From the NCBI GenBank assembly GCA_932294295.1, contig OW028576.1:47834628-47898627 (forward strand): a stretch of 64,000 nt of DNA, in the 5' to 3' direction. Shown here piece by piece: positions 39,122 to 64,000 of this stretch (its first letter is position 1; each line of letters starts with the position of its first letter). This stretch comes from Alitta virens. Lineage: Eukaryota > Annelida > Polychaeta > Phyllodocida > Nereididae. The position numbers and the translations under genes were made by a program. The notes beneath the pieces were generated by a model, which did no database searches, was not told where the DNA came from, and worked only from the letters and a program-made list of their open reading frames with translations.

Positions 39122-39150
39122 GCTGGTGGAGTAGTTTAGAAGCAGTGTGT
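39122..39150 (+). mobile_element. SINE B head fragment at the inversion breakpoint, F3
   Basis: Only GCTGGTGGAGTAGTTTAGAA plus a few bases of the box A region remain before homology to the unit ends. The inversion breakpoint therefore falls within this SINE. Confidence 0.6.
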
Positions 39151-39592
39151 ATATACTCTTGAGCAGAACATAGTTCAATTCAGTTTTTTTTTTCAATTAA
39201 ACCAACAAGCACCATGATTTACATTCCAGTGACAATTCAACCATTATCACTTTTTAGTCGGTCAAAGGTGCACATATATTTTTGCCACCAGGATGATTTG
39301 CTTCACTTTCATTTATGACCATCTGTTAAACAAACAATCACCATGATTTACATTTCAATGACAATTCCAACCATTTTCCTTTAGTCACACACCTCTTTGT
39401 CACCAGGACGATTTTCTTAACTTTCATTTATGACAATCTGCTCAAGTAAATGAATGTGAACTTTTGAACCTAACTGTATAAACTTCTGATGTAAATGATA
39501 ATGTAATTGGCTGTATCATAGTATAAACCACAATAAATGTCAGCTTGAGTTTTGGTCTTATTTTCCATAAATGACATGGAGCATCGCAAAAT
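39151..39592. other. Unique spacer at the inversion point
   Basis: This is the only stretch in the window that I cannot align to the macro-repeat unit. It joins forward copy F3 to inverted copy R1. It contains a short T-run near 39184-39193 and an imperfect dimer of about 110-130 bp (39206-39334 and 39335-39443). The remaining 150 bp show no recognisable feature. There are no long open frames. Confidence 0.8.
39206..39443 (+). repeat. Imperfect dimer in the inversion spacer
   Basis: ACCATGATTTACATTCCAGT at 39211 recurs as ACCATGATTTACATTTCAAT at 39340. Both are followed by GACAATTC, a CACCAGGA motif and CTTTCATTTATGAC. Copy 1 has about 20 extra bases. The dimer is not found elsewhere in the window. 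Confidence 0.85.
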
Positions 39593-40987
39593 GAACAGAA
39601 ATGTTATCAACAATTCAAATCCCAACTTGCTAGTTTGCCAAGCATTGACATGTGCAACCCCTGGCAAAAATTGATGTGTGGGTTCAATAAAATTTCTCTG
39701 AATTGTCACTTACCTGAGTAATATTCTTGTACATGCTAAATATTTCCTATACCATCACTTCATGTCACTCTACTTTGAATTTGTTATATCTGAATATCTA
39801 AAACTATAAGATTTATATGTATTTTTCAAACATTCCATCAATATTTTATTTAGTTATAATCCTATAAAGGTAATCAGAGTATTCTACACATGAAAGCTCC
39901 ACAAAATACATTATTTGATTTTGTATACAATGACACAATATTTAGCTTGGCCAACAGATTCGTGATATATTCTGGAAGCAAGTATATTACTCTCTACTAC
40001 AATCAGCATTGTTTGAAGGCTGTGATTAAACTTCAGAATCTATGGCAGTAATCACTGTTTCCAACTGTGCAGAAAACTCCTTTTAGCTAGGCCAAAGTTG
40101 ACTGATTGGACTTGTCTGGAACCATTCTACTCGTATTGTAAAGTTGTGTAAAATGTATGTTTTGTTGGTCAATATTGCTGATCTTCCAACTTTGTAGTAG
40201 GTCATTAAAAACTTTCAGAAATGCCAAGACAATTGATGATCTGTTGGAGATTCGCTCATCTCGGACAAAAAAGCATGCGCATATTATGATAATATCCGAA
40301 CTTGGCGAGATTTGCCTGTGGTTGATTCCCTAGATGATTGTCATGAAGGTTAATGATAAATCTGGGTAAAATACTCATTTAAAAGAAATTGAAAGCATAA
40401 AAATCATTTTTAATAAATAACATATACATGCAATTGATTACTTTGTAGGTCTATTACTGATATAAATATACAATGAACTATTTCACGCTAAAACTTCAGA
40501 ATGAACAATTTTGTGGTTTAACCAAACCAAACAAGTCGATTCACTAAAAAAACTATTTCATCATGCATCTGACATAATTCATTCCTGTTTTCGGGGGTTT
40601 CCACACAACACATTCCATAGTTAATATTTAGTTATTGGTTCTTTTGTCTGGAATAAACAAAGGAACAGACAACATTCTCTCAACATCGCATTGACAACAT
40701 TCATCCAACAAAGTTGGACCATGGAAAGCAAACATTGGAAACTGAAGAAATTAAATGAATCCCAATCCAAGGGCTTTCTGTCTAAGCATGTCTCTCCAGT
40801 TTGCATTTCATTCTAAGCTCCAAAACTTCTGCTTCATTAATACTTAATACTCATGTAAACATTTCATTTTGTGGTTGGATAGTCTTATTCTAATCATGCC
40901 AATATATTAGGTGTTTATATTATCATGTGTGATTAAGTTAAAGTGCTATTGGTCAGTATTTGTCAGATGCAGAGGTAGACATTATGA
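39593..40987 (-). repeat. Partial macro-repeat unit R1 (inverted)
   Basis: Reverse-complement match to about the first 2 kb of the unit, reading from 40987 (equivalent to F1 base 1) down to 39593. The far end lies beside the tail of the reversed tRNA-SINE (F2 about 20345). The part matching unit about 560-1330, which includes the promoter-like cluster, is missing and replaced by filler of about 70 bp at 40272-40340. R1 is the most diverged copy in the blocks I compared. Confidence 0.87.
40272..40340 (-). other. Filler at the R1 internal deletion
   Basis: About 70 bp of sequence without a match in other copies sits where R1 has lost unit about 560-1330. It includes the perfect short palindrome ATATTATGATAATAT. 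Confidence 0.6.
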
Positions 40988-41499
40988 TGAGATGATAAGG
41001 CTTAGTGCACATGTTGTTAACAGTCACGCAATAGCTATTGAAATGTTTTGAATGTTTCATTTAAAAAAATCATGCTGTTTTGTCCTTTTCAAATTCATCT
41101 TTTTTTAAGCAAAGTTCTTATTTTGGCCTGTAAATATCAGTTTTTTTTTCATAGCAGTCACTATCTACAGCAGTCACTGTATATAGCACAAAATATCATG
41201 AAAATAGTATTGCTATGTGATAGGTGTTTCGTGTGCATGCTATGCTGTTTCTTAAGTAGACTAGCTGTTCTTATATAAAATATGAATTATAAGTGATACA
41301 AACTTCATTAAAAAAACTGGTTTTATTAACTAACAGGTCTTAATTAAAGACTTGATTTAGTAAATCACTCTAAACCTTATTAATTATTGACAAATTCATT
41401 AAAAATTCAAGAGAAAGTTGGTCCATTGCCTTAACTGCACTTTGCATAGCGATGGAAAAAAACATAATAATTATCCCATAGGTTAACTGGAGTATTAAT

Positions 41500-41630
41500 T
41501 GAACTAGTCATATGGGTAGCTTAGCCACTAATTAGTTTTCACAGTAGTCTTATGGGTAGCTTACCCACTAATTAGTTTCCGTAGTAGTCTTATGGGTAGC
41601 TCACCCACAAATTAGGTTTCGTAGTCATGG
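41500..41630 (-). repeat. 41-bp minisatellite, three copies, R2
   Basis: GGGTAGCTTAGCC, GGGTAGCTTACCC and GGGTAGCTCACCC mark the three copies. The extra copy is specific to R2. Confidence 0.85.
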
Positions 41631-42539
41631 AGGCATATTAGAGTATAATGCATTATGAAGAAAAAGTCTCACAAAACACTGGGGGTTGTATAATCAAAAT
41701 TTGAAATGAAATATGAGTATTTCGATTGACCAGTTTATTAAATTGCACTGAGGACATTGAGGTGAATGACCACAAACAGAACTTTGTATCGAATAACAGC
41801 TTTCCGCAGCACTTCAGATAAACTGCTTACCCTCTCAGTGAAAGATCTCCAATTTCCTGAGCTTTTAATTTTGTGTTAATAGAAAAACAAACCTGAAAGG
41901 GAACTCTGGTCTTTGTAATTCTCTGATGTACGGTTTAATTATTGGATCTGCGCTGTACTTGGAAGCTCTTGCGTGATCATTTGACACGAAACCAATATGC
42001 GATCAGCAGAAAGCTGAAAGATGTGAGAGACATTTGGTTGGAGGGTACTCTGAAACATATTATCTGAATTCAAAGCCAGACACATCACTTGGAAATAAAT
42101 CTCTTGACCTCATCACCTCTTTGTAAAATTACTCTACCTTCAAATGACATAGCGCAGCCTTAGACTAAGTTGTAGCAATCCGCCATTTGAGGCTGATAAA
42201 AAAAATGCCCACCTGTGACCTTCTGTGCTACAACTTGTCAGCGAAGTTGTAAAAAGTAATAATTCACAGGAGAAAAACGTATTATACAGGAGAGATTTAT
42301 TTGGTCTTGAAAAAAAAGGTCTCCTAAACATGTTTTTCTTAATACTAAAGTCCATGTTCCACTCTATTAGATCAACAGGAAAAATACCAGATCTAAAAAT
42401 ATAGTTTCAATAGAGGCATATATTATCATTGCGCTCAGGATATTATTGTGATCCAATGAAAATTACTCTTGAAAGTATTCTTGATTTACTTTTATGACTG
42501 TGTGATACTGCAGTCCATCTCAAAGAGAAAAAACAAATT

Positions 42540-42712
42540 AATATTTCTTTGACAAATGACAGGATTTTTAGAGAGATAATCTTCTCGGAAGTGAGGATCA
42601 GTGGATTCAGTCATGCATGACAGGTCACATGTCATCAATCAGAGAAGGTGATTGGCTGGTGACAATCCCCCAGTCAAGTGAGGTCAGTTGACATGACTGG
42701 AATCATTCATCT
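42540..42712 (-). promoter_or_regulatory. Conserved non-coding block K, R2
   Basis: Motifs on the plus strand are CTCGGAAGTGAGG (ETS), GCATGACAGGTCACATGTCA, ATCAATCA and GATTGGCTGG (CCAAT in reverse). Confidence 0.4.
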
Positions 42713-42837
42713 TGCTACAGCATCAGCAGCAGCATCAGCAGCAGCCATCAGCAGCAGTCTTGGCAGTGGCACTAGCTTCAACAGAAGAAATTAGAGATTG
42801 GACCAATGAAAGATGATGTTTATTGAAAAAACAGATG

Positions 42838-43080
42838 ATATAGTACAATAAAATACAATACAATATAATATAATACAATATAATACATAATAAAATACCA
42901 TGCAATTATTTGATAAAATGCCACAAAATAATGTGATACAATATAATGACTTGATACAATACAATTGTTTGAAAAACAATACAATACAAATCTAATGGGA
43001 TATTCAAACTCATAATGCTAATTCCTCATAGTCTACCTTTTGTACAATACAAGACAATACAATACAGTGCAATGCAATAT
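42838..43080 (-). repeat. Degenerate TACAA pentanucleotide repeats, R2
   Basis: Complementary form (AATACAATACAATATAAT) of the F1 and F2 locus, with the CAG-rich tract next to it at 42716-42780. Confidence 0.85.
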
Positions 43081-43582
43081 AACGCAACACTATACACTAC
43101 AATAAACTACCCGGACAGCCAGAGAAACAGCTCAAGGTAATCCCTCGTGGGCTACATTTTTATTCTTCACCCTTGCCAAGCTTGTTTCGTGCTGAAGCGA
43201 CTTGTCAGTCACATAGTGTCAGTTACCAGGAGGAGTTACTTTGTATATTAGCCTAAGATGCTGCAAAGATCATAGACAGTGACTAAATCTGTGATGTTGC
43301 TTTTGTCTTTGCTTGCACTTCTTGTGATCATGCTTACCAAGGTTTTTTGTAATGCTGCATGTAAGATACTTAGAAATACTTTTTCTTAATGATGTTGTTT
43401 GTACCAGAACCGCATTAACCTCGTGTGATGATTTCATACTTAAATAGCTCTGGTATGGATACAACATGAATATATATTATATTCTTGCAGAATCTGATAT
43501 GTATTTATCACAATATATAGGAATAAGGTTTAAGCAAACCATATTTTTTTGGAACAACCTATGATCATATTTTAATCAACCA

Positions 43583-44860: not shown

Positions 44861-46927
44861 GGCGTTCAGATTTTGCCTTTTAACCATATACGCCTAACAG
44901 ATAATAGATTGTGTACAATAGGATGTAATATGACTATTTTCAACGTAGTTCCTTTCCTATGATAATTTTATACACATAACGACAACCAAATATATTAATC
45001 TACAGAATATTTCTACTTCAACCCACATTCAATGTGAACAATTTTAATAGGGCATGAAAGGACCACACAACTGCACATGGCCATCTAGTTGGCTCTTAGA
45101 GAACATTGTGAATACATCATAATTGAGACTTTTTTTTCTACAAAAGAGCATTTTGCAGAGATCAATCATTGCTGTCAAGATTTAACCTGAGTAAATTTTG
45201 AACAAAAGGTGTCACAATTTACACACATTTCGTAATTTATTTTTGTCTGACTGCCATTGAACAATATAATCAATTTGATCACCACAAACATTTTCATCGT
45301 AGCGTCCCTGTCAATGGACTGACTAGCTATTGCGATGACATTACTGATTCTGTTATTCTCACCTAAACAATGACTGACAGTAGGAAAAAAACAAACAACA
45401 GCATTTTTACTCTGATGACTGATCGTAGTAAAACATGTAATGTAAATATCAACCCAGGCGCATTTTGTTTTTATATCTATAGAAAATACATGATGAGAAA
45501 AACTAGCAGTCAGGCCAACAAAAAAAAGTGCTTCTTGATGTTAGACCAATGAGATCCCTGTCTTTGCCTGATTTAGAACTGCAGTTATTGCGATGTAAGC
45601 TGATAACTTAAATGTTCACAGAGGCATGTTTATGAATATTCATGAGTTTGAACGAAGATACTTTTTTATTCATGGAACAAATGTGCATTTTGTGAAATCA
45701 TATCATTATGTGATCAAATGAAAAATGTTTTTAGGCTGTCCATAGATAATTATAAAAATAAAAGATTAATTTCATCAAGAATGAATTGAAGTGTTGAAAT
45801 GCAGAAACAATATTTATTCAGTAAATTGTATTTAGAACACATCCTGCATTTCTGAAGGAAGCCACTTAGCATATACTCATGGTTTACTTATCATGTAAAA
45901 AAATAAGCATATGTTGTGAGAAACCAACTGAAACAAGTGAACACGTCACAAATGAGACATATTTGCGGTGATAATCTTGACCCTTGTTTCATTCCCCGAA
46001 GAAAAAGTTCCAGTGCTGAGTGACCCTTCACTTGAGACATATGGCTCCAGGGGCCACTTAATGTGGGAAATCAATCATGCTGTCTCTTCTCTGTCGTGAC
46101 TTTTCTCTTTCTTGAGGACGTTGCCAGATTTAAGTACAAGTGGTCAACACAAGATGCTATCACCCGTGAATGGCAAGGTCATTAACTTTTAATGTGATCA
46201 TATTACTGGACATTTTTAACATGAAGTGAACCAAAAGATAATGCTGCTTAAGGGTTGTGCAAGATACTGATGTAAAATACAAGATGCCCATTTTAACATA
46301 GGCTGTTTGTAAATGCTGTGCTTGTCATTAAGTTGCCATGAAGATGACATCACCATCAGATATTTTATGGTAATGACATAATCTAATTGGTTAGCCATAA
46401 TTGTATCAAAAGCGAGCTAAAATGGAAGTCATATAGGATACATTCTTCTCACAAAGGTGACACATCTCGGTGGCCTAGTAGCTGATGATGGTTGTTCACG
46501 TCTCAGACTGTGTGTCAAATAAATAAGCTTGTATGTGCATCAACACGGCCTATCATTTGTATGTTTGAGTCTGCTTCAACATTGCGGCAATCTCAGAAGC
46601 TGTATCAAAAACATTAACTTTGAAATTGTTTTAAGACAGAGCGATACTTTTGAAAAGTACTACTGTTGTATGCAGTATTCTCGTATATGTTGTGTAAGAT
46701 GTACATCTGAGGGTATACTCTGAAACTCATCATCTTCACCCTAGCGCAACTTCATCCCTTTAGACTATTTCTATTGACCTCTTGCCCCTTGGTTGTATTA
46801 CTACACTGCTTAAATGGCTCAGCACGACCTTGCAACAAGTTGTAGCCATCCAACATTTGTAACAGCTGATTAAAGTAATGCGCAGCATATGACCTCACTT
46901 GCTTTGACGTTTATCTGCACTGACCAG

Positions 46928-47136
46928 CCTGGGACTGGTGAATGAGTTGAAGGCCAAGTTCACAAAGAGTCATCCAAGATGGGATAGAGAGCATGACTTC
47001 ATGTGCATTTGGTTGAACAGACTGAGCTTTATGCCAATTAACTTGAATATCTCACAAATACTCAAGCTGAATGTCTATGTGAAGCAAATAGCACATGTTG
47101 TGGAGAAATTACTAATGTGGTTGAATGCAGTGTCAG
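46928..47136 (+). CDS. 209-nt open exon-like segment, R2
   Basis: The acceptor-like TATCTGCACTGACCAG ends at 46927 and the donor CAG|GTAGTTT follows 47136. The frame is open throughout: LGLVNELKAKFTKSHPRWDR at the start, PINLNISQILKLNVYVKQIA in the middle, LNAVS at the end. Length is 1+69 codons+1, leaving phase 1, which fits the two leading bases of 48046-48110. F1 and F2 share a TAG near the end where R2 has TGG, so the open state in R2 could be secondary. The protein is not recognised. Confidence 0.3.
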
Positions 47137-48045
47137 GTAGTTTCCTAAAATCTTCATGTAGTATGCAAGATTAAACATTTTCTAGACATCTGTATTTTCA
47201 ACAGCTGCAGTCTATGTTAACCTTTCCAATGTTCATTGAGACCCAGCCGACAGAAAAAAAATATCCACCAACAAATGTATAAATAGAAAAAGCTACAAAC
47301 GTGGCACATGGGTTATTTTTAATGTTTGCTTTATAGATGATTCACTGATGCTTCGTCATCTCTGAAAAAACTAACTTCAAAGCGTATCCAAGGTAGCGAG
47401 TCTATAATGTTACATGTAACAGGAGCTTTTGTGCTTCTCTCTGAATCTGATATCTCTCTAATTTCTGCCTATGAATTATTTCCATTACAACAAAGACAGT
47501 ACTATATTATGTCATCTATTGACTTTATTCTCGGTATTCAAAAAATAATCTGAAGATGACTAGCAAAATACATTGAAGCTATGTGAATAAATGGCAATAT
47601 ATTAATCTGAAGCTCTTTGTCTAGTTTGGTGCAGTTTATCTATGATATCAACATTGTAATCAATTGTAGATGAGTTTAATGTAAATATATTCAGATTCTT
47701 TCATATACTTGCAACTGTTACACAAGGAGACCTCACTAAGATAACATATATCATCGCTAGCGTGAGGCCATAAAGATGGAACAGGTATGAGAATGCATGA
47801 AACTATTATTCACTTATATGATATTCTCACGTGTAAGTTATATACAGAACACTTTTCATACAAGTAATAAGCTTACCATACAATGTTCTCGTTTGCCAAG
47901 ATATTGAAGTCAACTTTTCACAGGCATTTTCCATCACTTTTTCCTTCTTTTTCTAGTCCTTTTAATACCAACTGCTATCAGTCCCACCAGAACTCAAGGA
48001 AAGGAAATTCTGTTTCCGTTCTCAAGAAAATCGGATTACTTACAG

Positions 48046-48110
48046 CAGGTGGCAAGGTAGTAGCAAATGGTGTATTTACAGAAGATCAACTTGATGTACA
48101 TAGAAAGCTA
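48046..48110 (+). CDS. 65-nt exon-like segment with intact splice sites, R2
   Basis: Acceptor GGATTACTTACAG ends at 48045 and donor CTA|GTAAGACAT follows 48110. The frame reads GGKVVANGVFTEDQLDVHRK plus L. The two leading bases CA would complete a codon started by the final G of the upstream segment 46928-47136 (phase 1), so the two could be spliced in frame. A larger frame of 80 codons (47883-48125) also runs through it without a stop. Protein unknown. Confidence 0.35.
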
Positions 48111-49021
48111 GTAAGACATACATAGAAAAGAGATGCATTAAAAACGCCTGCTATTATTAAATATTTAATTTTGCTACACAAGAGTGTCACAGCCATATCA
48201 ATACTATATTTGAATTTGAAATAGGTTTTTTGTGAATATGAAAAAATGAAAATTTAGCTTTTTATATATAAAATTGAAAATTATATTACAAAAGCATAAG
48301 GTATATTATCAACATGTAGTAATTTTGATGGATAAAATGCACCAGGCTGCTTATCCAGTTTCAACTTCCCTCAAGGTATAAAAAAAACCTTTTAAAACTG
48401 TTGGAGATCTGCTTAGCTAAGGAAAAAGAATGCCATAGTCTTAAAAAACCTCTTAGACCGCCAGATGTGTCTGAGATGTCTTTGTTGATAATTTTACTAT
48501 TAGAACTATGCGTCTATATGTAATATGTGCACAGCTTCAAATATTAGGTGATTGATAAAATATGCTGTATGAAGCTCTGTCATGATTTTTCTTCATTACT
48601 CTCAGAGCATTTGATCCAAGCTCTTAGTATGAAAATCACAAGTTAATAAAAAAATGAATGCGTCTTCTCTTTGGATTTTCTTTTAATATATTTGTTTGGC
48701 CTCCATTAGTTGTGATGCGAAGCAAACAATATGCAGTAAAATACACTCTGTCAATGTCTATGCTGGCAAGGAACATTCGCTATTCATGGGGGTACATATG
48801 TAACATGGCATGAATTCCAAACTTTATCATAACAATTACCTGTAGCTGGTCATATATAAGCTTACTAAGCTTCATATTAGGGGCATTGAGACAATAAAAT
48901 AAAATAGACTTACACTTATATAATTTTAATTTCATAATTAATACCTCTACATAATTCTATGGCAGAAGAATAAGCAAATATGATAGAGACCCCTTAATTT
49001 AGCCAAGCTAACATTATGAGG

Positions 49022-49122
49022 GGCAATGCAATACAATGCAACACAATGCAATAAAAATGCAATACAATACAATAAAATATAATAAAATAAATACAATGCA
49101 ATACAATAAAATACAAATGTCT
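49022..49122 (-). repeat. Second pentanucleotide locus, R2
   Basis: CAATACAATGCAACACAATG and following runs. It retains the long form although the rest of this region of R2 is nearly identical to F1, so the F1 collapse is recent. Confidence 0.8.
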
Positions 49123-49743
49123 TATATACTTTCCTATGACAACACATGACATTACTAAAAGGAATTCTCGTACAAGCAATAGCCTAAACGAGACATGTGC
49201 ACTTTGCAGTTTCTGGCTCAACCCATAATTAGCTTAGGTGTAAGATACTCAATTGGACTCTGAGATTTCTTGAAAGAAACCTTGAGTTGTGCTTGAGTGC
49301 ATGGAGAGCCTCAAGGAACCGCTCTTGGTGGGAGACTTCACATAGAATGCATAATAAGTAAATGGGGTGGGAAGTAAGGAAGTTGTGGGAAGGAAAATGT
49401 AGTTAGGTGTGAAGCGTTCATGTTGAAGATGCTAAGGAAACTTTGTAGAAGTAAAAGTTTCAAGGTTCAGGTTTACCTATAGACACACAGTGGTTGAAAT
49501 ACTGTAGACTTTTGCACACCAGATATATTTGTAGCTTCCTTATTGTATTGAATTTGTTGATATAGCCAGAAAATGTAAAAACTATGCTGAAACAATCCAT
49601 ATTCCATATGCGTAATAATTGCATTGGCATAATGGTCTCTCCTCCGACATGTCATACTTTATTTTTCCTCAAAAGCTTGAATGAAACTTCCTCACTTATA
49701 AATGCAGACTTGTGATGTTTTCATTCAGTCTAGTATTATCCCC

Positions 49744-49770
49744 ATACACTAGTTAACCAAACTAGTGTAT
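49744..49770. other. Perfect 11-bp stem-loop, R2
   Basis: Counterpart of F1 9383-9409. Stem ATACACTAGTT/AACTAGTGTAT with loop AACCA: the loop varies and the arms do not. Confidence 0.55.
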
Positions 49771-50204
49771 CCATACCATAGCCAGACGTTTATGACCTTA
49801 CAGGTCAAAATGCTGTTAACTTCAAGCACCCTATACCACTATACTCTAAACACAGGATACAAGATCTGGAATTATAAAATCATATTTTTACCAAAATCTT
49901 ACCCATTTAATGGGTATGCAGACAGTTTCAGTTCTTGAATATCTCAAACTCCATGATCAATGCATAGTATTAATTTATAGACATTGACATACGTGTGGCT
50001 TAATTTCATAAATGCAAGCGTATCAAAATCTGCTAACACATTGACTTGACTTCCAGCCATGTTGGTCACTGGACATTAGGTCAGTGACCACTGGCTGATC
50101 TTCTAAATAATCCTAAAATAGCTTTTCACAGCAGTTCAGATAAGCCTCTTAGCTCCATGATAAAATGCCTTTAATTTCCTGAGCTTTGTATTTTTAGCTT
50201 ACAG

Positions 50205-50790
50205 TAAGAGGAGACCAGCAAAAAGGAAGGCAAAGAACCATTCCCTTCTGAATCTAAGCAATCCACAGGGGGTTTCTTCCTTTTTAAAACCTTTCAATTA
50301 CTTGATTTTGGCTGTGATTAAAGGACTGACCGGATTGCACTTGGCATGCATTGAGTGCAGGAAACTCAATCAAGAACAAGAATTACTATACTACTCATTA
50401 CATATAATGGTTTCTCATCTAAAAAATCCAGTAGGGCAAAGATTTTGCAAATTGTACGGGAAAATGCTGCATAGCCAGAACAATAGGTTAAAATACTTGG
50501 TTGTGCTGGGCCAATCATCAGCTTCCACAATTAAGGGAGGCAAATCGAGCGAACTTGCTGCAAGATATAACATTGGAAGCAATGACATTGGGAATACTAA
50601 AATACTGACCAGTGCCCCCCTGTCAGTTACTGATTTCTGCACTTTATATATGACTGCAGTGCAAGAAATCAGAGACAATGACTGTGAATTTTTAACCCTC
50701 AGCGAACAAAGTTCGAAAAAGGTTTTTGTTATCATCAATGTCTGTCCGGCGGGCGGACTCTGGGACGGGCGGGCGGATGGGCGGACATAA
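50205..50790 (+). CDS. Open exon-like frame behind a splice acceptor, unknown protein (R2)
   Basis: Equivalent of F1 8363-8948, also 586 nt. The acceptor TTTTTAGCTTACAG ends at 50204. The frame starts T|AAG AGG AGA and stays open to the stop at 50788-50790. Residue changes against F1 include Q to L, M to K, A to T and W to R in the conserved part. These are mostly non-synonymous, so purifying selection is not shown. The end lies inside the MITE. It is downstream of exon-like segments 46928-47136 and 48046-48110 on the same strand and may belong with them. Confidence 0.38.
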
Positions 50791-51580
50791 CACTTTAATT
50801 TTAGTAGCAGAACTCTAACACTAATGCACTTACCCTTACAAAATGCTGTACAGTAATACTCTATATGGCCTAGTGGTGCCTTTTGATAGTCACATTGACA
50901 TACGTTGGCTATTTTATACAAAATTTGGAAAAAATAGAAAAACAATTTTTTGATTGTTTCCGGAGCAGCACTCTGACGCTACTGCACCTTCATGTTTAAC
51001 ACTTTGTCATACTATGTCTAAAATAGTGAAGTGGTGCCTTTTGGGGGTCTCATTGCATCAAAATAGGACAATGTAAGACTTAGTGGACAAAAGTAAGACT
51101 TAATATGGGCCTTAATGTTTACAAAAATAAATAGGACTTTTCAGGCTTTTTTATAACCCATGGGAACACTGTATTATTTTACACTTGGCAGAATATGATG
51201 AACAAATGAAGAAATTCAAGAGTTCAAAAAATAGGACATCTTGGACTCTAATTAGCATTGCATAACAGGCTATGTAGGCCAAGTGGTAATTGCTTTGGTT
51301 CATCACACACACTAAATAGACACTCAAGAAATACAATTTTTGTAAAACATAGCCAATATATGTCAGTGTGGCTATCACAAGGCACCACTAGGCCATATAG
51401 AGTGTTACTGTATAAAATGTCATTAGGGTAAGTGCATTAGAGTTCAGCTCTAGAAAAGAAAGTGTATTTTAGAGTTCTGCTCTGGAAATGAAAGTGTAAT
51501 GCCCGCCCTCCTGCCTGTCGGACGAACACATAACAATTTGAATAATGCCTGTGTGGTATGTGGGATTCGCTGAGGGTTTA
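50693..51580. mobile_element. Foldback MITE with long inverted repeats, R2
   Basis: Same element at the equivalent site in R2. Ends are TAACCCTCAGCGAAC (50693) and TTCGCTGAGGGTTTA (51580), and the GC-rich arms lie at 50743-50790 and about 51500-51530. It is about 10 bp longer than the F1 copy. Confidence 0.8.
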
Positions 51581-52874
51581 GCTGCAGCGCAGCCTATTTT
51601 TTACTCTAGAAGAGAAAGAGACTCCGGTCCACTTTTTCTCAACAAAATAATGTTGGTTTTTTATTTACATTGATTTTTTTATTACTTTTAATGTAGATTG
51701 TTTTCTTTCTTTTTCACACATATGCCAAACAAATTTTCATACACAGATTGGACTATTCTTCATTTGCACAAGCCATCCAGCGCCTCCCAGGGTTGGTGGA
51801 TTGCGTCGAGTACGATTGGTGATGTCATAATCATTGCAATAGCCAGTGATGTCATTGTGATTGTTTGTTATTGTGACATTTTATTTCTATGTGCTTAAAA
51901 TTGATGTAAATCACCAATCCTGAGTATTGAAAATTGTCTTTTAATGACCTGATACTCTGATAAATCTATAACATCAATTATTTGATTTTCCTGAGTGTCC
52001 ATGAATGAAGAAATTCATTCTTTGTCTGCTATGAAACCGTCACTGGGCATCTTTACTCCATGTGTGTATAAATAAACATATGTATATAGAATATCTAACT
52101 TTAGCCCTTCAGAGCCATGAACATTGAACAACTAATTGAAGCTAGATCCTATATAACGCCATTAGCATGAACATTTTTAATGAAAATATGATTATTTTGT
52201 ACCATTTCCTGCAACCATTTCCTGATATGACATCAGAATTGATTAGATTAAACAATGCTATCACTATGGAATCATGAAGGATCAGTTATATGATTTTATT
52301 GCACAATAGGACATAAATAATAATTGTACTGGGGTCACTAAAAGAGGCTGGAGCCACAAAGCAAATACATTTGATATCAGTCAAAATCAACAACAAACAA
52401 ACGAACCTGACACGCATAGACTTGTTAGCTCAACCCAAGTCGTCTCGACCCCAGTTGTCTCACTGTAGCACAAAATGGTTCAATTGGCTCCTGCTTACAA
52501 AGCCCAGAGCTTCCTCTTTGATCTCAAAAGGTGTTTTTTTTCTTTCTGTCTCATTTTCACTTCAAAGAATCCATTGTTAGTGCATCACACATTATAATCA
52601 CACATATCGAGGGAAAACGCTTTGTTTGGGGGAATAGCAGAAGAAGAAAGACAGACACAAAGAAAGATAAGTGATGGGTGGACAGACAGATTATAAAAGG
52701 ACTGAGTTAGAAGATAACATACACACAGAAAAACAGAGATTGACAATACTTGTAGATAGACAGGGAAAGGCAAACAACAATGAAAACATATATGCCTGAT
52801 ATTCATGTTTATAGTAGCGTTATTGGGCAATTTCAAATCAGAAAATATGATGAGTCCACATCATGTTACACATT

Positions 52875-53217
52875 TACCCCATGAGTGGGGTCTTTCACAT
52901 GCCTCACCATAGACACCGAGTACAAGGCACCTCCAATTTAACATCTCATGCAATTGACATCCAGCAGAGAATGTAGCTTATGCAGTGTACCTTGATTACA
53001 ATCAAAATCTGGATCAAAGACGAGATAAATGAATTGTTGACCACATGCCTGCATTTCAGCAGTCATAAATAAATGCCTTTACTATATCAAACCAACTCAC
53101 ACTTACCCTTGATAAAAAAAAAAAAAACTTTTCCCTGGTGTGACTCTCTTTGATGCCATGATCATCATGAACTCATGACCTACAGCCAATTCTGTCATGA
53201 CACGCTGCTTCTAAGCT
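52875..53217 (-). mobile_element. tRNA-derived SINE B (box A damaged), R2
   Basis: Inverted counterpart of F1 5921-6275 with the same 11-base loss in box A. It is another derived state shared by F1 and R2 only. The A-run at 53116-53128 matches the T-run at F1 6010-6021. Confidence 0.65.
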
Positions 53218-54969
53218 ATCAGATGCAAACATTCAAAATGTTAGCCCTGCTCATGCTGATTCCTCATTGACTGGGTTTAGATAGCTATTCTTGTCAAGAC
53301 TGTTTGTGACAAAGCCACTTGCCAGTCACACTCATTCAGCTACAAAACAGAACTAGCTCCTGTACACCACAAAAATCACCTAAAAGTCATATTCAAGATT
53401 CAACAATTTTTAAGATAATGACTTGCATAGAAGTCCATCGACTAAAGCATATTCAATATACAGTGCTTGGCCTGACAGACCTATAAGAGTCTCATATGCT
53501 CAAAAAAATAAATAAATATCTGGGGTTAGTTACACATATAATGTAAGAATAAAGGATATTACTATTCACAAATACTACAAAGCAGACTGGAAATTACCCA
53601 AGAAGCCACATGCCTTTTGTTAGATGTGTCTATGTAAAGATACTGTTTTGGATGGTTTTAGAAATTCTGAATTAAATGAAATAACAACTGATTGACTTAT
53701 TTTTATTTTTGCTGCTCAATACTAGTTGTCTGAACAAATGTAATAATGAGATGATAAAGCTTGCCATCCACATATTGATTTACTTTATTGAGTAGTGTGA
53801 TGAAATAACATCTTTCACTGCAATGTCTGGTGAATTTATGATAGATGACTCTAAGTTAGTGAGTTAATTTTAGCAGCTATTGTTATGAAATATATGAAGT
53901 CTTCGCAAGAAACCATTATGAAAATTCAGACTCATATCCCTACCTAATAATTTAACCCAATTTTCAAATTAAGTTAAGTATCCAGTAGATTATGGCTTAG
54001 TCTAAATGAATTCATTAGAAAGTGTGAAAGATATTTTTTGACAAAACTACTTAAAATGTTGATGCAGCACTTGTCAATGAGGCAAAATACAGTGAAAACC
54101 AGATAATGCTCCTTTACTTCACAGGACAGTACATTATAAAACAAAAGTGTTGTTGCAACGTATATGCATTAAAATATTATGATGTCATAACTTTTCAATT
54201 GCCAATTCATTATAATGGTAGTTTGGTGAAATACATTTGTCCATGTGACTAAAGGTTGCTGAAATCTTTCATAGAAATAAAGCTAAATGGTTAGAATTGT
54301 TGATGATTTATTTAAAAGATGTAGAACTGTATTCTGTTCAAATGTTTGTGTATGTTTGGGCTGAATGTACAATAAGCTTATCGGCATTGCACAAGGGACT
54401 GCATTGGATCCATAAATATCACTGCTTGTCACTCTTTGCAGCCATGTCAAAAGTGACTGCTAAGGAGGACAATACTGTCCAATAGCCTTTCCATGTTTCC
54501 ACACAAATTCTCTGTGATAAAAGCTGTTTTGTGATTTTCTTTAGAAAGCGATGTCCATGACTGGAATAAAAACAGACCACTTCGCCGAACAGAGTGGGAA
54601 GAAGGAGAAAAAAGGGAGAGGAATGGGAGGAGATTCTCATCTGGAAAGCATTGCAAATGCTTGATGGAGAGAGTAACCTATTGCAATGTTATATAATGTG
54701 GTTGCATTGAGGCATTTTGAGTTGGAAGTAAAGCATGTTTTGAGCATCATAACGGTTTGCGTACAGTTACATGTAATCATAAGCAAAACTAAGATAGAAA
54801 ATGACTTTAAATAAATTATACATACAATGCCATAAATACATTCAAAAGTAATTATTACCGTGTCTTGTAATATACAGGTCTGGTCCAGTTGCTGGAGGAA
54901 ATGTTCTTCATGATAAAGAGACTCTTTTATCAGTATGTTAGTAATACAATATATCCGACTCTTCTATTT

Positions 54970-56412
54970 TTGCTATTAAGCGATTACGGTGTGATTATCA
55001 TAATAACAGTTATTTTGTACTGCACAAGAAAATTAAGAATCACTAGATGGCTTTTAACAGGCAAAAACCTTCAATATGACTCAACAATACACTTCATCCC
55101 TGCCGTATATAAGGCTTACTCCGGTTTAGTGTGAAATGGCTATGGGGCAAAAAGGACCAGTCAATTCCCTTTCCGTCCATCTGTCTATGATGGGTCAGTG
55201 AACACACGATCTTCTGGTGTCCTCGAACATTTTCAGGGGCCACTTGTAATGCTCGGCTTGATGTGAGTAATCCCAATGCTTTTGTGTTTGCAGAAAGTAA
55301 CATCAATTTTTGTTGTAATATGCCACAAAGAAGCAATGCTATTAAGGTCAAGTTGTGGCAGTCAAAGCAAATATCAGATAATATATAAGCAGAAAGTCAT
55401 TTATTTGTAATATTTTCCGTTATATCGGTGCTTATATTATGTCATAGTACTATTAAAACACACTTTTTGAGGCTCTCATAGTCAAATTAGAGTATTTTTT
55501 TAATTCATTCATGACGCTTTTATAAATTTTCATGAACAGCATTTGCTTATATCATCAGTCAATACTAATATGTTTATTCGCTGATGCAATATACGTACAA
55601 AATTTGTGCTCATAAATGGTATTACAGTGTGATTATCATAATGCCACTGTGACTACAGTCTTTCGTGTGTTATTGACAATTGAATTTGTGCTGCACAAGA
55701 AAATTAGGAATATCTGATCAAAATCACAAGATGGCTTTCAACTGAGAAAAACCTCCAATAAGACCGGACAATACTCTTGATCCCTGCCGTATATAAGCCT
55801 ATAAGCCTTAGTCTAGTTTAGCATGAAATGGCAATGAGGCAAAATGGACCAGTCAATTCCTCTTCTGCCCATCTGTCTTTGACGGGCGAGTGAACACACA
55901 ATCTTCTGGTGTCCATTGAACATAGTCAGACGAGCCTTCAGGGGCCACTTGAAGTGCTGGGTTTGATGTGAATAATCCCAATGCTTTTGTATTTGCAAAA
56001 CTATCAGAGGTGTCTGATGAATAGCATGGCTTGCATCTGTAGGTTTTTTCAATAGATGAAATCCATCGTTGATCAATGAACACTTATTTTGAGTAACATC
56101 ATTTTTTGTTGTAATATGCCACAAAGAAGCAATGCTATTAAGGTCAAGTTGTGGCAGTCAAAGCAAATATCAGATAATATATAAGCAGAAAGTCATTTAT
56201 TTGTAATATTTTCCGTTATATCGGTGCTTATATTATGTCATAGTACTATTAAAACACACTTTTTGAGGCTCTCACAGTCAAATTAGAGTATTTTTTAAAT
56301 TCATTCATGACGCTTTTATAAATTTTCATGAACAGTATTTGCTTATATCATCAGTCAATACTAATATGTTTATGCGCTGATGCAATATACGTACAAAATT
56401 TGTGCTCATAAA
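54970..56412 (-). repeat. Tandem duplication of about 800 bp, R2
   Basis: Inverted counterpart of F1 2731-4175. The landmark GCTCATAAAT occurs at 55608 and 56403, a spacing of 795 bp against 807 in F1. The junctions are equivalent, so F1 and R2 derive from the same duplicated ancestor. Confidence 0.87.
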
Positions 56413-56698
56413 TGGTTCTGCAACTACTGCTACATTTGTATGCCAACTATTTTATAATGAGAAATCCAAACTTGTCATCTTATAGACAGGTGTATTCAGT
56501 ATACATTGCATTATTTGGTGTGAATATGTCAATACATACTATCTGTCTGGCTGTCCATACAAGTGGCAGTGATGCTCAGTATATCATTATGTATCTCTAT
56601 CACGGCGCATTACAGTTGACACCAAGGCTGGGAAATCAATAGCAAAATGTCAATATTTAAGCTAGTGGATGAGCATTAAGCAATGGTTCAATGATTCA

Positions 56699-56820
56699 TA
56701 TTGTTTGTTTGTTTGTTTGTTTGTGATTAGGGCTTGACGTCCTGTATTTTTGCACCAATTGGGCTAATTAGGACAGGCAGGGACCATGGCAATGAGACAA
56801 AGTAGGTAACGGCCATACAA
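56699..56820 (-). mobile_element. CAAA-tailed retroposon insert, R2
   Basis: Reverse-strand copy of the F1 insert at the identical site, with target duplications TCAATGATTCA at 56688-56698 and 56821-56831. It is 8 bp longer than in F1 because the tail has two more CAAA units. This is the expected sign of tail slippage after one shared insertion. Confidence 0.85.
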
Positions 56821-56977
56821 TCAATGATTCACATACAATTGCTGGTATTTGCTGATGTATGAATTGATTTAGTGAATCTGATACCATGAAATGTGACATT
56901 TTGGTGCCAAACTACTAATTGCCAACTTTATCATGCGTGCCTCTTCTCTAGAATTATATTTCTATTCTGATATTGCT

Positions 56978-57161
56978 AATGTCTCCAGGCGTAGAGTGTA
57001 GAGTTCCTGACTCCCAATTCCAAGAGACCGGGATCAAGTTTTGCCCATTGACTTGTGTTTGTGGCCTTTAGCAAGCCACTTAGTCCTCATTGCTTGGGTA
57101 CCTGGCTTTTCAAATACAGGAATGCTTCAGATTGAAGTCCAAGGCCATGGCGCTGATAAGG
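56978..57161 (+). mobile_element. tRNA-derived SINE A, R2
   Basis: Plus-strand copy because the unit is inverted. The head starts GTCTCCAGGCGTAGAGTGTA, the box B-like GACCGGGATCAAG follows, then the body with CCACTTAGTCCTCATTGC and GGGTACCTGGC. It has the same shortened tail as F1. Confidence 0.6.
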
Positions 57162-58060
57162 AAAAAACTGATTTGTTGGTTCAATAGATTTTTACTGAAT
57201 TGTCACTAACCTTAGAAATATTATTGTACATGTAATTGGCATTTGCTTATTTAATCTGAAATTCATTCAACATTAAAGTATAAGAAATGCAGTGCTCTAG
57301 GGGCCATATATGTTAGAATGTAAACTGTTGTTACGTTATGGTTGCTGAATATTTCCTATATATAATCAATTCATATCACTTTACTTTGAAATTTTTAATA
57401 TCTGAATATCTAAAACCATTAGATTTATATGTATTTTTTTAACATTCCATCATAATGTCATATATAGTCATAAACCTATAAAGTTAATCACAGTATTCTT
57501 CCATGGATACTGTACCAAATACATTATTTATATTACTATTTTGTATAAAAAGACACAGTAGCTTGGCTCTTGCCAACAGATTCTTCATGTATTCTTTAAG
57601 CCAGTATGCTTAAACTTCAGAATCTATGGCAGTAATCAGTTTCAAACGTTGCAGCAGATTGCTTCTAACTTGTCCTGACTCGTACTACTTTTATTGTAAA
57701 GTTACATAAAATGTATGTTTTGTTGGTCAGTATTGATAGTCTTTCAACTTTGTGGCAGGTGGTTCAAAATGTTCAGAAATGCCAACTTGAATAAAATTTT
57801 GATCTGTTAGAGATTTTCTCATCTTGGACAAAAAAGTTATTCCAAAAGTTAGATGTTAGCATTGTGACAAACAAGCATTGCCATTTGGAAATAACCCATT
57901 TATTCTAATCCTTGTGGTACCCCATGACAACTTTAAAATCATGTCCAATAACTGATAGCACTGTATTACAAATGCATGTCTTGACTTTTTCATTTTTTCA
58001 ATCGAACAGCACAGCAACTCCAACTTCATTCCTGCTGAGTTTGCTGCTAAAGTTTTCAGT

Positions 58061-58166
58061 TTACCATGGCCAGAGCCACTCAGGAAACGGAAATGACGCC
58101 ATGTTGCCTGGGGCAATCTCCCAGAGGGCATTGCGCCCCTTAAATTGTTGTTTGGAGGGTGATTGG
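58061..58166 (-). promoter_or_regulatory. Promoter-like cluster P1, R2 copy
   Basis: Reverse-strand equivalent of the F1 cluster and almost identical to it. CCAAT (as ATTGG) is at 58162-58166, the ATGGCGTCATTTCCG block starts at 58102 on the minus strand, and the donor-like ATGGTAAAC is retained. Confidence 0.4.
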
Positions 58167-60384
58167 AGAAAGCAATTTCCCCTTAGACTGAGCCAATTGC
58201 CCTTAATAGGACTGTTTTAGGTTCAAAACATAGATAAAAAATGTAAACATGCTCTAATTCTGAATCTATTGAACTTTCTAAATAAAAATGTGTGTGTATT
58301 TCCATTATTTTTTTGTATCTTTCATTCATCATACTATATTTTTTTCCTGCAAGTTAGTATTATATGATTTAAAATAATGAAGTGGCTGCATTGTCGTCTT
58401 ACTGGAATTTGTTTCAGAGACTATGCCTCCAATTTCTCTAAATGTATTCTAATTAATTATAAGTTTATTTATTCAACACAATAAATTGATGGAAAATGTC
58501 ATGCAAGAAGAATATAATATAAAATGATTTACTGCTACAACTGATTTTTATGAAGGATAATCACAAATTTGGATAAGATGCTCGTTTAAATGAAATTGAA
58601 AGCACAAAAAATTTAATTTTCATAATCACATACACATATAATTTATTACTGTGTAGGTCTATTGCTAATATACGATCAACGCTGAAACATCAGAATGAAC
58701 AGATTTTTGTGGTGTAACCAAGCAAAACAAGTAGATTCACTAAAAAAAAACAAATATTTTATCATGCATCTGACATAATTCATTCCTGTTTATTTTTCTA
58801 TCCCAGTGTTCCATGAAACCCATTGCATTTTAATGATTGGTCTTTTTGTCTGTAAGATAAATAAAGGAACAGACAACATTCTCTCAACATCGCATTGCCA
58901 CCCTTCATCCCAACATTGCTGAACCCTGGAAAGCAAACATTGCAAACTGAGGAAATTAAATGAATCCCAATCCAAGAGCTTTCTGTCTAAGCATGCTCCA
59001 AAACTTCTGCTTCACTCAATACTTAATACTCATGTAAACACATCATTATGTGGTTGGATAATCTCATTCTAATCATGCAATTATATTAAGTGTTTATATT
59101 ATAAAGTGCTATTGGTCAGTATTTGTAAGATGCAGAGATAGACATAATGATGAGATGGTATGGCTTGGTGCATATATAGTATATATTCACCTAATAGCTA
59201 TTGAAATGTTTTAAATGTTCCTAAATAAATCATAATTTTATCATTTATCACATTCAAACTTATCTTTCTATTACATAATTCCTTTATTATTTTGTCTATA
59301 AATTTTGAATTTGTTTTCCTTATTTAATTCTCAACTGAAGCTGTAACAGTTACTGTTTATGGAACCTTATTATTCAGAGGACTGTATTGTGTTTTTATAT
59401 CAAGATATTTATGTATATATTTATCTCTCTTTCTGGAGGCCGAAATACAAATCAAATCAAATGTTTTGATTAATAGGTTAAATTCTGGTAAAGTTTGATG
59501 CTACACCATGGCTGGTATATAATTGTAGAGTATCTGAGTAAGAATTATAATACAAATCAAATGCATAATATAGAAGTCATTTGTGCAACTAAGGGTTGCA
59601 GTGCATTATAATTGGTTATTTTGCATGAGGAATTTTGTAGCTCTCAGAAACCGCCATCTGGACTCTCAGCAGTGGCAGCCTGACTATTGCTAATCCCACA
59701 TAGACCATTTTTCCCTTCTTTTTTATTTCTTTTTTCACCCCTATCTTGTTATAGCAGTCACTGACAAGGCCACTGTGTCAGTTACAAAGCAGAACAACTT
59801 TTTATTAGCATGAAATATCACAAAATAGTGTTACTCTATGTACTCTGTGATGCATGTACTCTGTGATGCATGTACCTGTTTCATGTGCATGCCATAATTT
59901 TCCTTAATTAGAAAGCTGTGCTTATGTAAAATATTAATTAGGAATGATACAGACGTTATTGAAACATTTTTTTATTCACTAACATATAAGCATAAAAAGT
60001 CTATGACATACAACAAAAATTAATTTTTATTACAGCTTTGACAAAGTAGTGATGAGTATTACAATATTGCTTCTTAACTGAAACTGTTACTGAATAGACA
60101 ATCCAAGAATAAACAAGCTCAGCCACCCAGATTTTCAATTAAGCATTAAGAGCTAAATTAGTCCTTGATGTTTAAGACAAGTTGGCACATATATGCAATG
60201 AAACTCTCACAATCAGACAGGTCTTAATTAAAGACTTGATTTAGTAAATCAATCAAAACCTTAATAATTATTGACAAATTTATTAACAATTCAAGAGAAA
60301 TGAGGTTCACTACCTCGATTGCACTTTGAGTAAGCGATGAAAAAAACCCAGAATAAATATCCCATATATTAACTCAAGTATTAA

Positions 60385-60468
60385 ACTAGTTGTGTGGGTA
60401 GCTTACTCACTAATTCATTTTCACAGTAGTCTTATGGGCAGCTTACCCACAAATTAGGTTTCGCAGTC
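60385..60468 (-). repeat. 41-bp minisatellite, two copies, R3
   Basis: Two diverged copies with GGGTAGCTTACTC and GGGCAGCTTACCC cores. Confidence 0.8.
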
Positions 60469-61619
60469 ATGGATCCATATGCATTATAAAAAAAATTCTT
60501 ACAAAATACTAAACGTTGTATAATCAAAAATGTTAAATGTAAGATGAACATTTTGATTGACCAGCCTACTAAATTGCACTGAGGACATTGAGGTTACTGA
60601 CCACAAACATAAATTTGTATCGAATAACAGCTTTCCGCAGCTCTTCGGATAAACGCTTACCCTCTTGATGAAAGATCTGCAATTTCCTAAGCTTTTAATT
60701 TTGTGTTAATAGAAAAACAAACCTGAAAGGGAGAACTTTGTAACTCTCTGAGCTTTCGTTTAATTACTGAATCTACACTGTACCTGGAAGCTCTGGCTTG
60801 ATCATTTGACACGAAACCAATATGCGTTCAGCAGAAAGCTAAAAACTATGTGTGACACATTTTGTCTCTATTCATCAGTCCAATGCAAAAGTAATGCACT
60901 CTATAAGCTCTCCAACACATAACTAGTAACGCGATCTGGTTACCCACTAAAAGTTGTCTTCTTTTTAAAAATAAACTACACTTGGAATTTTTCCGTTTGC
61001 AGCAGATAATAACTTATGAAATTTAGGCTTCATTTATGTTTATTATTTGTGTTTGAGCCATAGAATTTATATCCATAGTCAAATGTTACTCTCCAATATA
61101 ATATGCTTAGCTGGGAGAGTACTCTGAAACATATCATCTGAATCCAAGGCCAGACGCAACTCTTGGAAATAAATCTCTTGACCTCATCACCCCTTGGAAG
61201 AGTTACTCCACCTTCAAATGACATAGTGCAACCATGGACTAAGTTGTAGCCATCCGCCATTTGAGACTGATTAAAGAACTGCATGCCTAGAATCTCAGGT
61301 ACTATAATTTGCAATGTTGTATGTTAAATAGAATGAGTAATAATCTACAGGAGAAAAACCTTATGCATGAGAGAATGATTTGGTCTGGCCAGAAAAAAGG
61401 TCTCTAAAATCTGTTTTTCTTAATGCTAAGGTAATCTAACAGCTGTGTTAGGTCAACAGGAACAATACTAGATCTAATAATTTAATTTCAGTAAAGGCTT
61501 ATAATATAATTGAGTTCAGGATATTATTGTAATCCAATGAAAACTACTCTTGAAAGAATCCTCAATCACTTTTATGACTTTGTAATACTGCAGTCCATCC
61601 AGGGGGTAAAACACATCAA

Positions 61620-61788
61620 TATTTCTTTGACAAATGACAGGATTTTGAGAGAGAATCTTCTCGGAAGTGAGGATCAGTGAGTGCAGTCATGCATGACAGG
61701 TCACATGTCATCAATCAGAGAAAGTGATTGGCTGGTGGCAATCCCCCAGTCAAGTGGGGTCAGTTGTCATGACTGGAATCGTTCATCT
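61620..61788 (-). promoter_or_regulatory. Conserved non-coding block K, R3
   Basis: Same arrangement as R2. An in-frame TGA replaces the TGG of the F1 minus-strand frame, arguing against a protein here. Confidence 0.4.
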
Positions 61789-61801
61789 TGATACAGCATC
61801 T

Positions 61802-61929
61802 CAGCAGCATCAGCAGCATCAGCAGCATCAGCAGCATCAGCAGCATCAGCAGCATCAGCAGCATCAGCAGCATCAGCAGCATCAGCAGCATCAGCAGCAT
61901 CAGCAGCATCAGCAGCATCAGCAGCATCA
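61802..61929 (-). repeat. Expanded 9-bp CAGCAGCAT repeat, R3
   Basis: About 14 near-perfect copies of a 9-bp unit (CAGCAGCAT phase). At the equivalent site F1 has five GCT triplets (15559-15574), F2 an interrupted GCT/GTT tract (32718-32753) and R2 an interrupted CAG tract (42716-42762). The translated (HQQ)n, (DAA)n and (LLM)n frames are by-products. Confidence 0.95.
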
Positions 61930-62011
61930 GCCTTGGCAGTATCAGCCTTGGCAGTGGCACTTGCTTCAGGGGAAGAAAATAGAGACCAATAAAATTTATT
62001 GAAAAGACAGA

Positions 62012-62280
62012 CAATATAATACAAAACAATACATTAAAATATTATATAATACAATATAATACAAAATACAACACCATACAATTATTTGATAAAATGCCAC
62101 AAAATAATATGATACAATATGATACAATAAGATAATTTGATACTATTGCATAAAATACAATACAAACCTAACGAGACATCCAGACTATCGGGCCAACTCA
62201 TACCTGCTAATTTCTCATAACCTACCTTTCATATAATATAATGCAATACAATACAATATAACACAACACTGTACACTACA
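62012..62280 (-). repeat. Degenerate TACAA pentanucleotide repeats, R3
   Basis: R3 counterpart, next to the 9-bp expansion at 61802-61929. Confidence 0.85.
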
Positions 62281-64000
62281 ATAAAATACCCAGATTCCCA
62301 GACCAACAACTCAAGGTAATCCCTTGTGGGCTACCTTTTTATTTTTTATTCTTGCCAAACTTGTTTCGTGATGAAGCTACTTGTCAGTCACATAGTGTCA
62401 GTTACTAAGAGGAGTTACTTTGTATATTAGCCTGAGATGCTGCAAATATCATAGACAGTGACATAACTGTGTGATGTGCTTTTGTGTTTGCTTGGATTTC
62501 TTGTGATCATGCTTACCGAGGTTTTTTGTAATGCTGCATGTTAGATACTTAGCATTACTTTGTCCTAATGATGTTGTTTGTACCAGAACCAAATTAACCG
62601 AGTGTGATGATTTCATACTTAAATAGCTCTGGTATGGATACAACATGAATATATATTATATTCTTGCAGAATCTGATATGTATTCATCACAATATATAGG
62701 AATAAGGTTTAAGCAAACCATATTTTTTTGGAACAATCTATGATCATATTTTAATCAACCACACAATTTGAAGTAAATTACTTTCCATGGTTTATTAAGA
62801 ACACTTGCTGTTTAGACATTTAATATCCTTGAACAAAAGTCCAATATGTCAGCATTCAGTTTTTAATTAGGTTAAACAATGGAGCAGTAATCTAGTTGCC
62901 ACTAAATCAGTTTATTAGAAAACCTTCAGCTATTCATGATGTTTATCGCAATGAAATATTAGAAAAAGAAGAAACATTCACGTAATTAGCATTAATTGAT
63001 ATGACAAGGCAATACGTTCCAATGAATGTTGGAAAAATGAATTAACAATAACAGCGAACACATACTCACTCATTATACAGTTTACAGTAGACACCATAAT
63101 CAGCATTCGTTTTAATTATGAAACTAGACCATATGTCTTGTTAAAAGTTAGTATACAAATGAATACCGAAAACTTAATAGTTCATGCACTGACTCACTGT
63201 ACAGTATACAGCAGATGATGCTACGATCAGCATTTGCTTATGCGTGGTGATCTGACATCAAGTTTCTGCACCAGTTCTGTTTTGGGATTTTCTTTGAAAG
63301 CGATGTCCATGACTGCAATAGAAGAGCACCTATATTTGATGCTGTGGCATTCAGATTTTGCATTTTAACCATATACGCCTAACAGATAATAGATTGTGTA
63401 CAATAGGATGTAATAAGACTATTTTCAACGTAGATCCTTTCCTATAATTTTTTTATAGACATGACGACAACCAAATATATTAATCATCTAGTTGGCTCTT
63501 AGAGAACATTGTGAATACATCATAATTGAGACTTTTTTCCCAAAAAAAGCATTTTGCAGTTTTACAGCCAATATTAAGATCAATCAATACTGTCAATATT
63601 TAAGCTGAGTAAATTTTGAACAAAAGGTGTCACAATTCACACAAATTTCGTAATTTATTTTTGTTTGACAGACATTGAACAATATAAACAATTTGATCAC
63701 AACAAATATTTTCATTTTAGCCTCCCTGTCAATAGACTAGCTATTGCGATGAAATTACTGATTTTTTTTTGTCACCTAAATCATAACTGACAGTTTGAAA
63801 AAACAAACAACAGCATTTTTACTCTGACTGACTGATCATAGTAAAACATGTAATGTAAATATCAACCCAGGCACATTTTGTTTTTTATATCTATAGAAAA
63901 TACATGACAAGAAAAACTAGCAGTCAGGCCAAAAAAAAAGTGTTTTTCAATGTTGAACACTGAGACCCATATGTTTGCATGATTTAGAACTGCAATCATT

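Follow-up and report, generated by a model that had tools for sequence, protein, structure and literature searches.

How did a few units of a diverged, two-armed repeat array in the polychaete Alitta virens come to be nearly identical to each other along some stretches and not along others? The question is raised by a window of 64,000 nucleotides (assembly GCA_932294295.1, contig OW028576.1, positions 47,834,628 to 47,898,627), the whole stretch of DNA that was analyzed, to which its flanks were added. All coordinates are window-based; negative values lie left of the window and values above 64,000 lie right of it. The array of diverged units spans approximately -30 kb to 112 kb, with unit lengths of about 13-18.5 kb, and is organized in two facing arms. 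The left arm carries the forward units Fm1, F0, F1, F2 and a truncated F3, the right arm the reversed units R1 (truncated), R2, R3 and R4 and further partial units to the right. Most pairs of units are roughly 75-90% identical. Two units are cut by the window: the start of F1 lies before base 1, and R3 is truncated by the window end at 64,000. The original prediction for this locus described R2 as a mosaic, produced by a conversion or crossover tract of at least 13 kb shared with F1 and turning into an F2-like type near 45.6-45.9 kb. The patchwork of R2 fits ordinary recombination between the repeats rather than a special 13-kb conversion between F1 and R2.

Inside the window, F1 1-10,074 is 98.4% identical to R2 59,150-49,079, and F1 13,483-15,564 is 98.0% identical to R3. 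With the flanks added, F1 -2,702 to 10,074 matches R2 61,886-49,079 at 98.1% and F1 -2,702 to 5,353 matches R3 80,323-72,259 at 98.7%. R2 53,791-62,113 and R3 72,259-80,595 are 97.9% identical in direct orientation, with a tandem spacing of about 18.47 kb, and both are inverted relative to F1. The flank-inclusive matches thus reveal three near-identical copies, of which R2 and R3 are tandem neighbors. The near-identity of F1 and R2 is confirmed across most of the range first described, reaching 98.97% across 12,464 aligned sites (R2 61,934-49,363). It does not end at 59.15 kb, as had been proposed, and extends to R2 61,934 or F1 -2,705. Position 59,150 appeared as a boundary because the window start in F1 maps there. 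The window edges were misleading in this respect, the third copy, R3, being hidden past the window end. A duplication of 807 bp that was regarded as common to F1 and R2 is found in both (F1 2,728-3,052 versus 3,525-3,849). Its offset is about 797 bp, and R3 has the duplication too.

If a single 13-kb tract connected F1 and R2, R2 should be closest to F1 throughout. In a three-way alignment of about 12,460 sites (up to F1 9,790), however, R3 is equally close, with 133 differences between R2 and R3, 130 between F1 and R3, and 128 between F1 and R2. Differences confined to a single copy (194 sites, F1 -2,760 to 9,790) are found 67 times in R3, 65 times in R2 and 62 times in F1. Compared to the diverged units as outgroup, the single copy carries the derived state at 131 of these 194 sites (43 in R3, 48 in R2, 40 in F1), while 27 sites appear as shared derived states of the other two copies (11, 6 and 10 for R3, R2 and F1 sites, respectively). 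Among the remaining 36 sites, both states occur outside at 22, neither at 2, and 12 are without an outgroup. The divergence pattern of the three copies is a star with some exchange, and no pair among them is closest up to F1 9,790.

The identity profile between F1 and R2 was obtained by hidden-state segmentation, and edges were scored by log-likelihood ratio (LLR). Starting from the segment of 98.97%, identity changes to 96.39% (R2 49,362-45,730), 89.16% (45,729-45,136), 96.03% (45,135-43,200), 82.13% (43,199-42,016), 89.68% (42,015-41,321) and 62% over the last 307 aligned sites. A sharp edge is located at R2 45,745 (F1 13,329; interval 13,277-13,362), where identity falls from 98.4% to 89.1% (LLR 30); the switch had thus been placed correctly. 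It is not the only one. Identity recovers at about 45,138 (89.7% to 94.9%, LLR 6.5, weak as a single edge), and the final drop follows at R2 43,199 (94.5% to 82.7-82.9%, LLR 38). A cruder method puts this drop at R2 43,422 (phase 14,881) and does not separate the 89% stretch. At R2 43,890-44,522, an insertion of 632-637 bp is present that none of the other six aligned copies has. It is about 83% like the adjacent R2 sequence and likely represents a local tandem duplication. When R2 45.8-43.2 kb was searched against the species' own genome, each of the 45 matches lay on the contig of the window. Where matches cover R2 45.74-45.14 kb, F1 and R3 reach 86-87% over the part holding it, other long matches 77-81%, and shorter ones 87-92% over 108-318 bp. 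No donor for this whole stretch was found in the own-genome search.

Left of the switch, R2 had been assigned to the type of F2. This assignment does not hold for 45.74-43.2 kb (F1 phase 13,329-15,104), where F2 agrees with R2 at 43 and with F1 at 52 of 108 sites that differ between F1 and R2. The corresponding counts, R2 side before F1 side, are 45:56 of 112 for F0, 44:62 of 111 for R4 and 50:49 of 103 for Fm1. In the next R2 segment beyond 43.2 kb, F2 shares the state of R2 at 76 and that of F1 at 75 of 163 sites. The sole tested segment that leans to F2 is R2 42,119-41,336 (51:29 of 84 sites; 90.8% identity). The F2-like appearance of R2 fits the retention of ancestral DNA where F1 and R3 share gaps. 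Three such gaps of 12, 82 and about 62 bp are common to F1 and R3 at places where R2 and F2 keep DNA. The DNA of the 12-bp gap is complete in F0, F2, R4 and Fm1; of the 82-bp gap, 58-80 bp are present in the same four units; of the gap of about 62 bp, 38-44 bp are present in F0, R4 and Fm1 and 7 bp in F2. R2 itself is without 17 bp that six other copies keep in full or to 16 bp.

The match between R3 and F1 beyond 13,483 was correctly anticipated, and it rises to 99.83% over 3 kb between the facing copies F1 12,255-15,243 and R3 65,263-62,240. This tract contains 5 differences compared to 31 expected from the rest (P ~7e-9), and the fewest differences in any window of equal size in the F1-R3 background is 11. 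Up to 77 variable sites in succession show F1 and R3 in agreement against R2; in 2,000 shuffles, such runs reach 20 sites at most. As is characteristic of interlocus gene conversion, the tract is more alike than its flanks, and both copies keep their own flanks. The divergence of R2 at 45.74-43.2 kb lies within this tract, so that either R2 was overwritten there or F1 and R3 were, through a change in one of them that was subsequently transferred to its partner; the outgroup counts favor neither alternative. At F1 10.3-12.2 kb, F1 and R2 go together and R3 stands apart, since its sequence in this region is of another type. R3 65,216-67,401 is 97.5% identical to 108,450-110,639, and about 84-86% identical to R2 and F1 over most of its length. 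A further stretch of 530 bp (F0 -11,587 to -11,059 and F1 2,998-3,527) is 98% identical although F0 and F1 are otherwise about 80% identical nearby; judged from this contrast, it is likely another conversion patch. Of the proposed tract of at least 13 kb between inverted and direct copies, the recombination of inverted copies is thus supported and the single F1-R2 tract is not, because R3 is equally close, the left DNA of R2 is not of F2 type, identity partly recovers, the final drop lies at 43.2 kb and near-identity continues past 59.15 kb at the other end.

The ends of the near-identical block fall close to a common position in the unit. Edges are given as F1 phase, with intervals covering a log-likelihood difference of up to 3. 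The edge from F0 to the block (F0 versus R3) lies at phase 15,135-15,168, that from the block to the R2 tail (R2 versus R3 or F1) at 15,063-15,179, that from the block to the F1 tail (F1 versus R3) at 15,203-15,358 or 15,243-15,411 depending on the range, and that from R4 to the block (R4 versus R3) at 14,645-14,716. Other scans gave 14,945-15,571 for F0-R4, 14,959-15,167 for F0-F1 and, with low support (LLR 7), 14,737-15,252 for R2-Fm1; the R4-F1 scan (12,624-14,697) was uninformative. As best estimates, the four edges fall in a stretch of about 650 bp of the 18.2-kb period. With random phases, four edges fall within 650 bp in 0.017% of trials, a figure that is not a clean test since the edges were located after the data had been seen. 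According to these positions, the left arm contains roughly one full period (18.2 kb) of the block and the right arm roughly two; the block ends just upstream of a 9-bp minisatellite that is located at F1 phase ~15,565 and varies in length from unit to unit. In-phase block ends and a direct tandem of R2 and R3 are the pattern of whole-period amplification, with edges identified post hoc. Similarly, the overlapping edges of F0 and R2 are the pattern of a homologous inversion, again post hoc and with phase 14,881 also allowed for R2.

These observations can be joined into one history, to which we assign about an even chance: one whole period was amplified by unequal exchange, moved across the arms by homologous exchange and later overlaid by conversion patches. 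A period of about 18.2-18.5 kb, whose start and end lie at nearly one phase about 0.2-0.9 kb upstream of the minisatellite, would recently have been amplified to three copies, with F1 in the left arm and R3 and R2 as a tandem pair in the right arm. Unequal exchange would have made the tandem copies, giving the gain of a whole period with in-phase ends. A homologous crossover between facing units, i.e. an inversion, would then have put one copy in the left arm and left the matching edges in F0 and R2. If this inversion is reversed in thought, three tandem blocks in one arm would result. Later conversion would have produced the mosaics through the tract of about 3 kb between F1 and R3, another, of about 2.2 kb, that joins R3 with a remote unit of the right arm, and smaller patches. 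Going one step further, the whole period, instead of being a random conversion tract, may be a phase-locked unit of transfer between the arms, by inversion or circle, with crossovers focused just upstream of the minisatellite; this extension is tentative and rather doubtful.

Several points weigh against this history. All comparisons rest on one assembly of a single individual. The R2 edge may alternatively lie at phase 14,881, the R4 edge is about 450 bp away from the F0 edge, and no arm-specific signature proving an inversion was seen in the pairwise unit scan. Within the star region, the 27 pair-shared derived sites are partly clustered and indicate some exchange. Exchange is also evident at R2 60,444-59,887, where R2 and R3 are only 94.6% identical, and R2 and R3 agree against F1 at 9 successive variable sites (F1 3,502-3,806; maximum of 8 in 2,000 shuffles). 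Mutual conversion could also yield a star.

A long interlocus gene conversion, or break-induced copying, could have carried a tract of 16-18 kb between the facing arms with the number of units unchanged. Except that the edges differ and R3 is just as eligible a donor, this is the original idea. Facing copies do share a conversion-like tract here (F1-R3), and human segmental duplications provide examples of long interlocus events: the inferred conversion length there averages 6.26 kb and exceeds 14.4 kb in the top 10% (PMC10172114). However, the F1 block ends at nearly the same phase on both sides (15,149 and 15,244-15,344), which a free-ending tract would achieve by chance in an estimated 1-2% of cases, and the tandem identity of R2 and R3 requires a further event anyway. 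Moreover, conversion tracts are mostly described as short (PMC3961182), with usually a few hundred bases and rarely more than 1 kb in mammals, an average of 518 bp in flies, and suggested lengths of up to 22 or 53 kb. Taken together, we regard the long tract as unlikely. Excision of the period as circular DNA and re-insertion into the other arm by homologous exchange, with the tandem pair as a dimer or a second insertion, would account for the near in-phase ends in both arms as well as for the star divergence. An amplification route through circles released from tandem repeats, with rolling-circle copying and reintegration, has been proposed (PMC2543021). No direct trace of a circle was found, and sequence alone barely separates a circle from unequal crossover plus inversion. 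The overlap of the F0 and R2 edges suits a reciprocal exchange, and we consider the circle route quite improbable.

Finally, R2 and R3 could be two haplotypes of one unit that the assembly kept in line. R2 and R3 differ by about 1%, a divergence comparable to the heterozygosity of many animals. In addition, a second array to the right, with copies 99.5-99.9% alike, has a gap of 200 N 108 kb past the window end. The 184 kb from -49,999 to 134,000, however, contain no N, and F1 is an inverted copy with flanks of its own. R3 and R2 further differ by segments of about 85% identity and by the 632-637-bp insertion, though haplotypes can do so too. Such an assembly artefact is very unlikely in our view.

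Amplification of a whole period, exchange between facing arms and short conversion patches would thus be overlaid in one assembled locus. The locus also illustrates that, where a third copy falls just beyond the limits of a fixed window, the two copies inside can seem to be a special pair. Should the phase-lock recur in other individuals, a recombination hot spot next to the minisatellite would be indicated.

The features of the window are compiled in Table 1. Identity between F1 and F2 is lower at about F1 7-8.5 kb. Searches of the 64-kb window found neither a tRNA nor an Rfam match at gathering score, and none of six open reading frames (ORFs) from it has a Pfam match at E up to 0.001. In codon-phase scans, weak signals were numerous on both strands. 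F1 100-400 was considered as coding and rejected, with stops in every frame when aligned across copies. On the opposite strand at F1 ~12.0 kb lies a shared frame of at least about 53 codons, in which changes are in excess at third codon positions. It is broken in F0, R4 and Fm1; since it is open in six of nine copies, it may be a short exon or the remnant of a decayed one. For R2 and F2, the ORFs of this frame gave no Pfam match at E up to 0.1; two further ORFs, located near F1 13.4 kb, match only far below the cut-off. Short conserved segments in the second downstream array have no clear shared frame. Among 10 ORFs from flanks and arrays, one passes the Pfam cut-off (a subtilase outside the units), one is weak below the cut-off and eight have no match. 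No nameable gene was found in the units by the Rfam, tRNA, Pfam and codon-phase scans; genes lie outside the repeat units, which are treated as mostly non-coding and may contain exons.

A dispersed element of about 310 bp (50,690-51,000) has at least 33 near-full-length matches of 83-87% on many contigs, which agrees with the short interspersed element (SINE) proposed earlier, a candidate label. The second tandem array (133,478-231,032) has offsets of about 21-24 kb, and its copies are 99.5-99.9% identical over 21-28 kb; given the 200-N gap at 171,872-172,071, an assembly problem is possible there. The subtilase (Peptidase_S8) gene is tandemly duplicated at 113,830-122,408, with copies 99.7% identical over 1,155 bp. 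Related genes face each other across the arrays (-45,615 to -42,984, plus strand; 252,933-255,215, minus strand) with 34-52% protein identity in matched parts. Neither has a Pfam family above the cut-off. With related genes facing on both sides, the facing layout may extend beyond the repeat units.

Table 1 Features of the 64-kb window (window coordinates; unit direction given as strand)
Feature	Position	Strand	Remark
F1 copy of near-identical block	1..15343	+	starts ~-3,076, left of window; right edge 15,244 or 15,344 by range
F1 unit tail, older type	15344..17680	+	~94% to F0, R3, R4 tails
F2 unit, diverged F1 paralogue	17681..34400	+	mostly ~75-94% in 250-bp steps; borders approximate
F3 unit, truncated	34401..39150	+	borders approximate
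Center between arms	39151..39591	.	short array matches only
R1 unit, truncated fragment of unit start	39592..41150	-	
R2 tail, older type	41151..43199	-	~82-83% to F1/R3 beyond edge 43,199
R2 segment of higher identity	43200..45135	-	~94.5-96% to F1/R3; carries 632-637-bp insertion
R2 stretch at switch proposed earlier	45136..45745	-	89-90% to F1/R3; F0, F2, Fm1, R4 no closer
R2 copy of near-identical block	45746..61934	-	vs F1: 99.0% (61,934-49,363), 96.4% (49,362-45,730)
9-bp minisatellite	61801..61931	-	14.6 copies; ~0.2-0.9 kb beyond block edges, unit direction
R3 copy of block, in-window end	62240..64000	-	part of 3-kb F1-R3 tract reaching 65,263
Short frame, F1	~11,960-12,140	-	
Short frame, F2	27,995-28,183	-	
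Short frame, R2	46,908-47,174	+	

Facing repeats that evolve in concert by interlocus gene conversion are known from the palindromes of Y chromosomes. Distant near-identical copies, sharp switches, direct and inverted patches and long inferred tracts are shared with human segmental duplications (PMC10172114). Unlike in those conversion systems, only about one period is near-identical here. Most unit pairs are roughly 75-90% alike, and the arms as a whole are thus not kept uniform. Facing homologous units with matching edges in one pair (F0 and R2) resemble inversions by non-allelic homologous recombination between inverted repeats (PMC3961182); the comparison here covers one assembly and one orientation. 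The gain of a whole period with in-phase junctions resembles the amplification of tandem repeats by unequal crossing over or circles, in contrast to which the unit is about 18 kb long, the copies are few and one of them lies in the opposite arm (PMC2543021). Overall, the locus is a case of ordinary concerted evolution, marked by a tidy phase-lock, and the event is of a kind that is already known.

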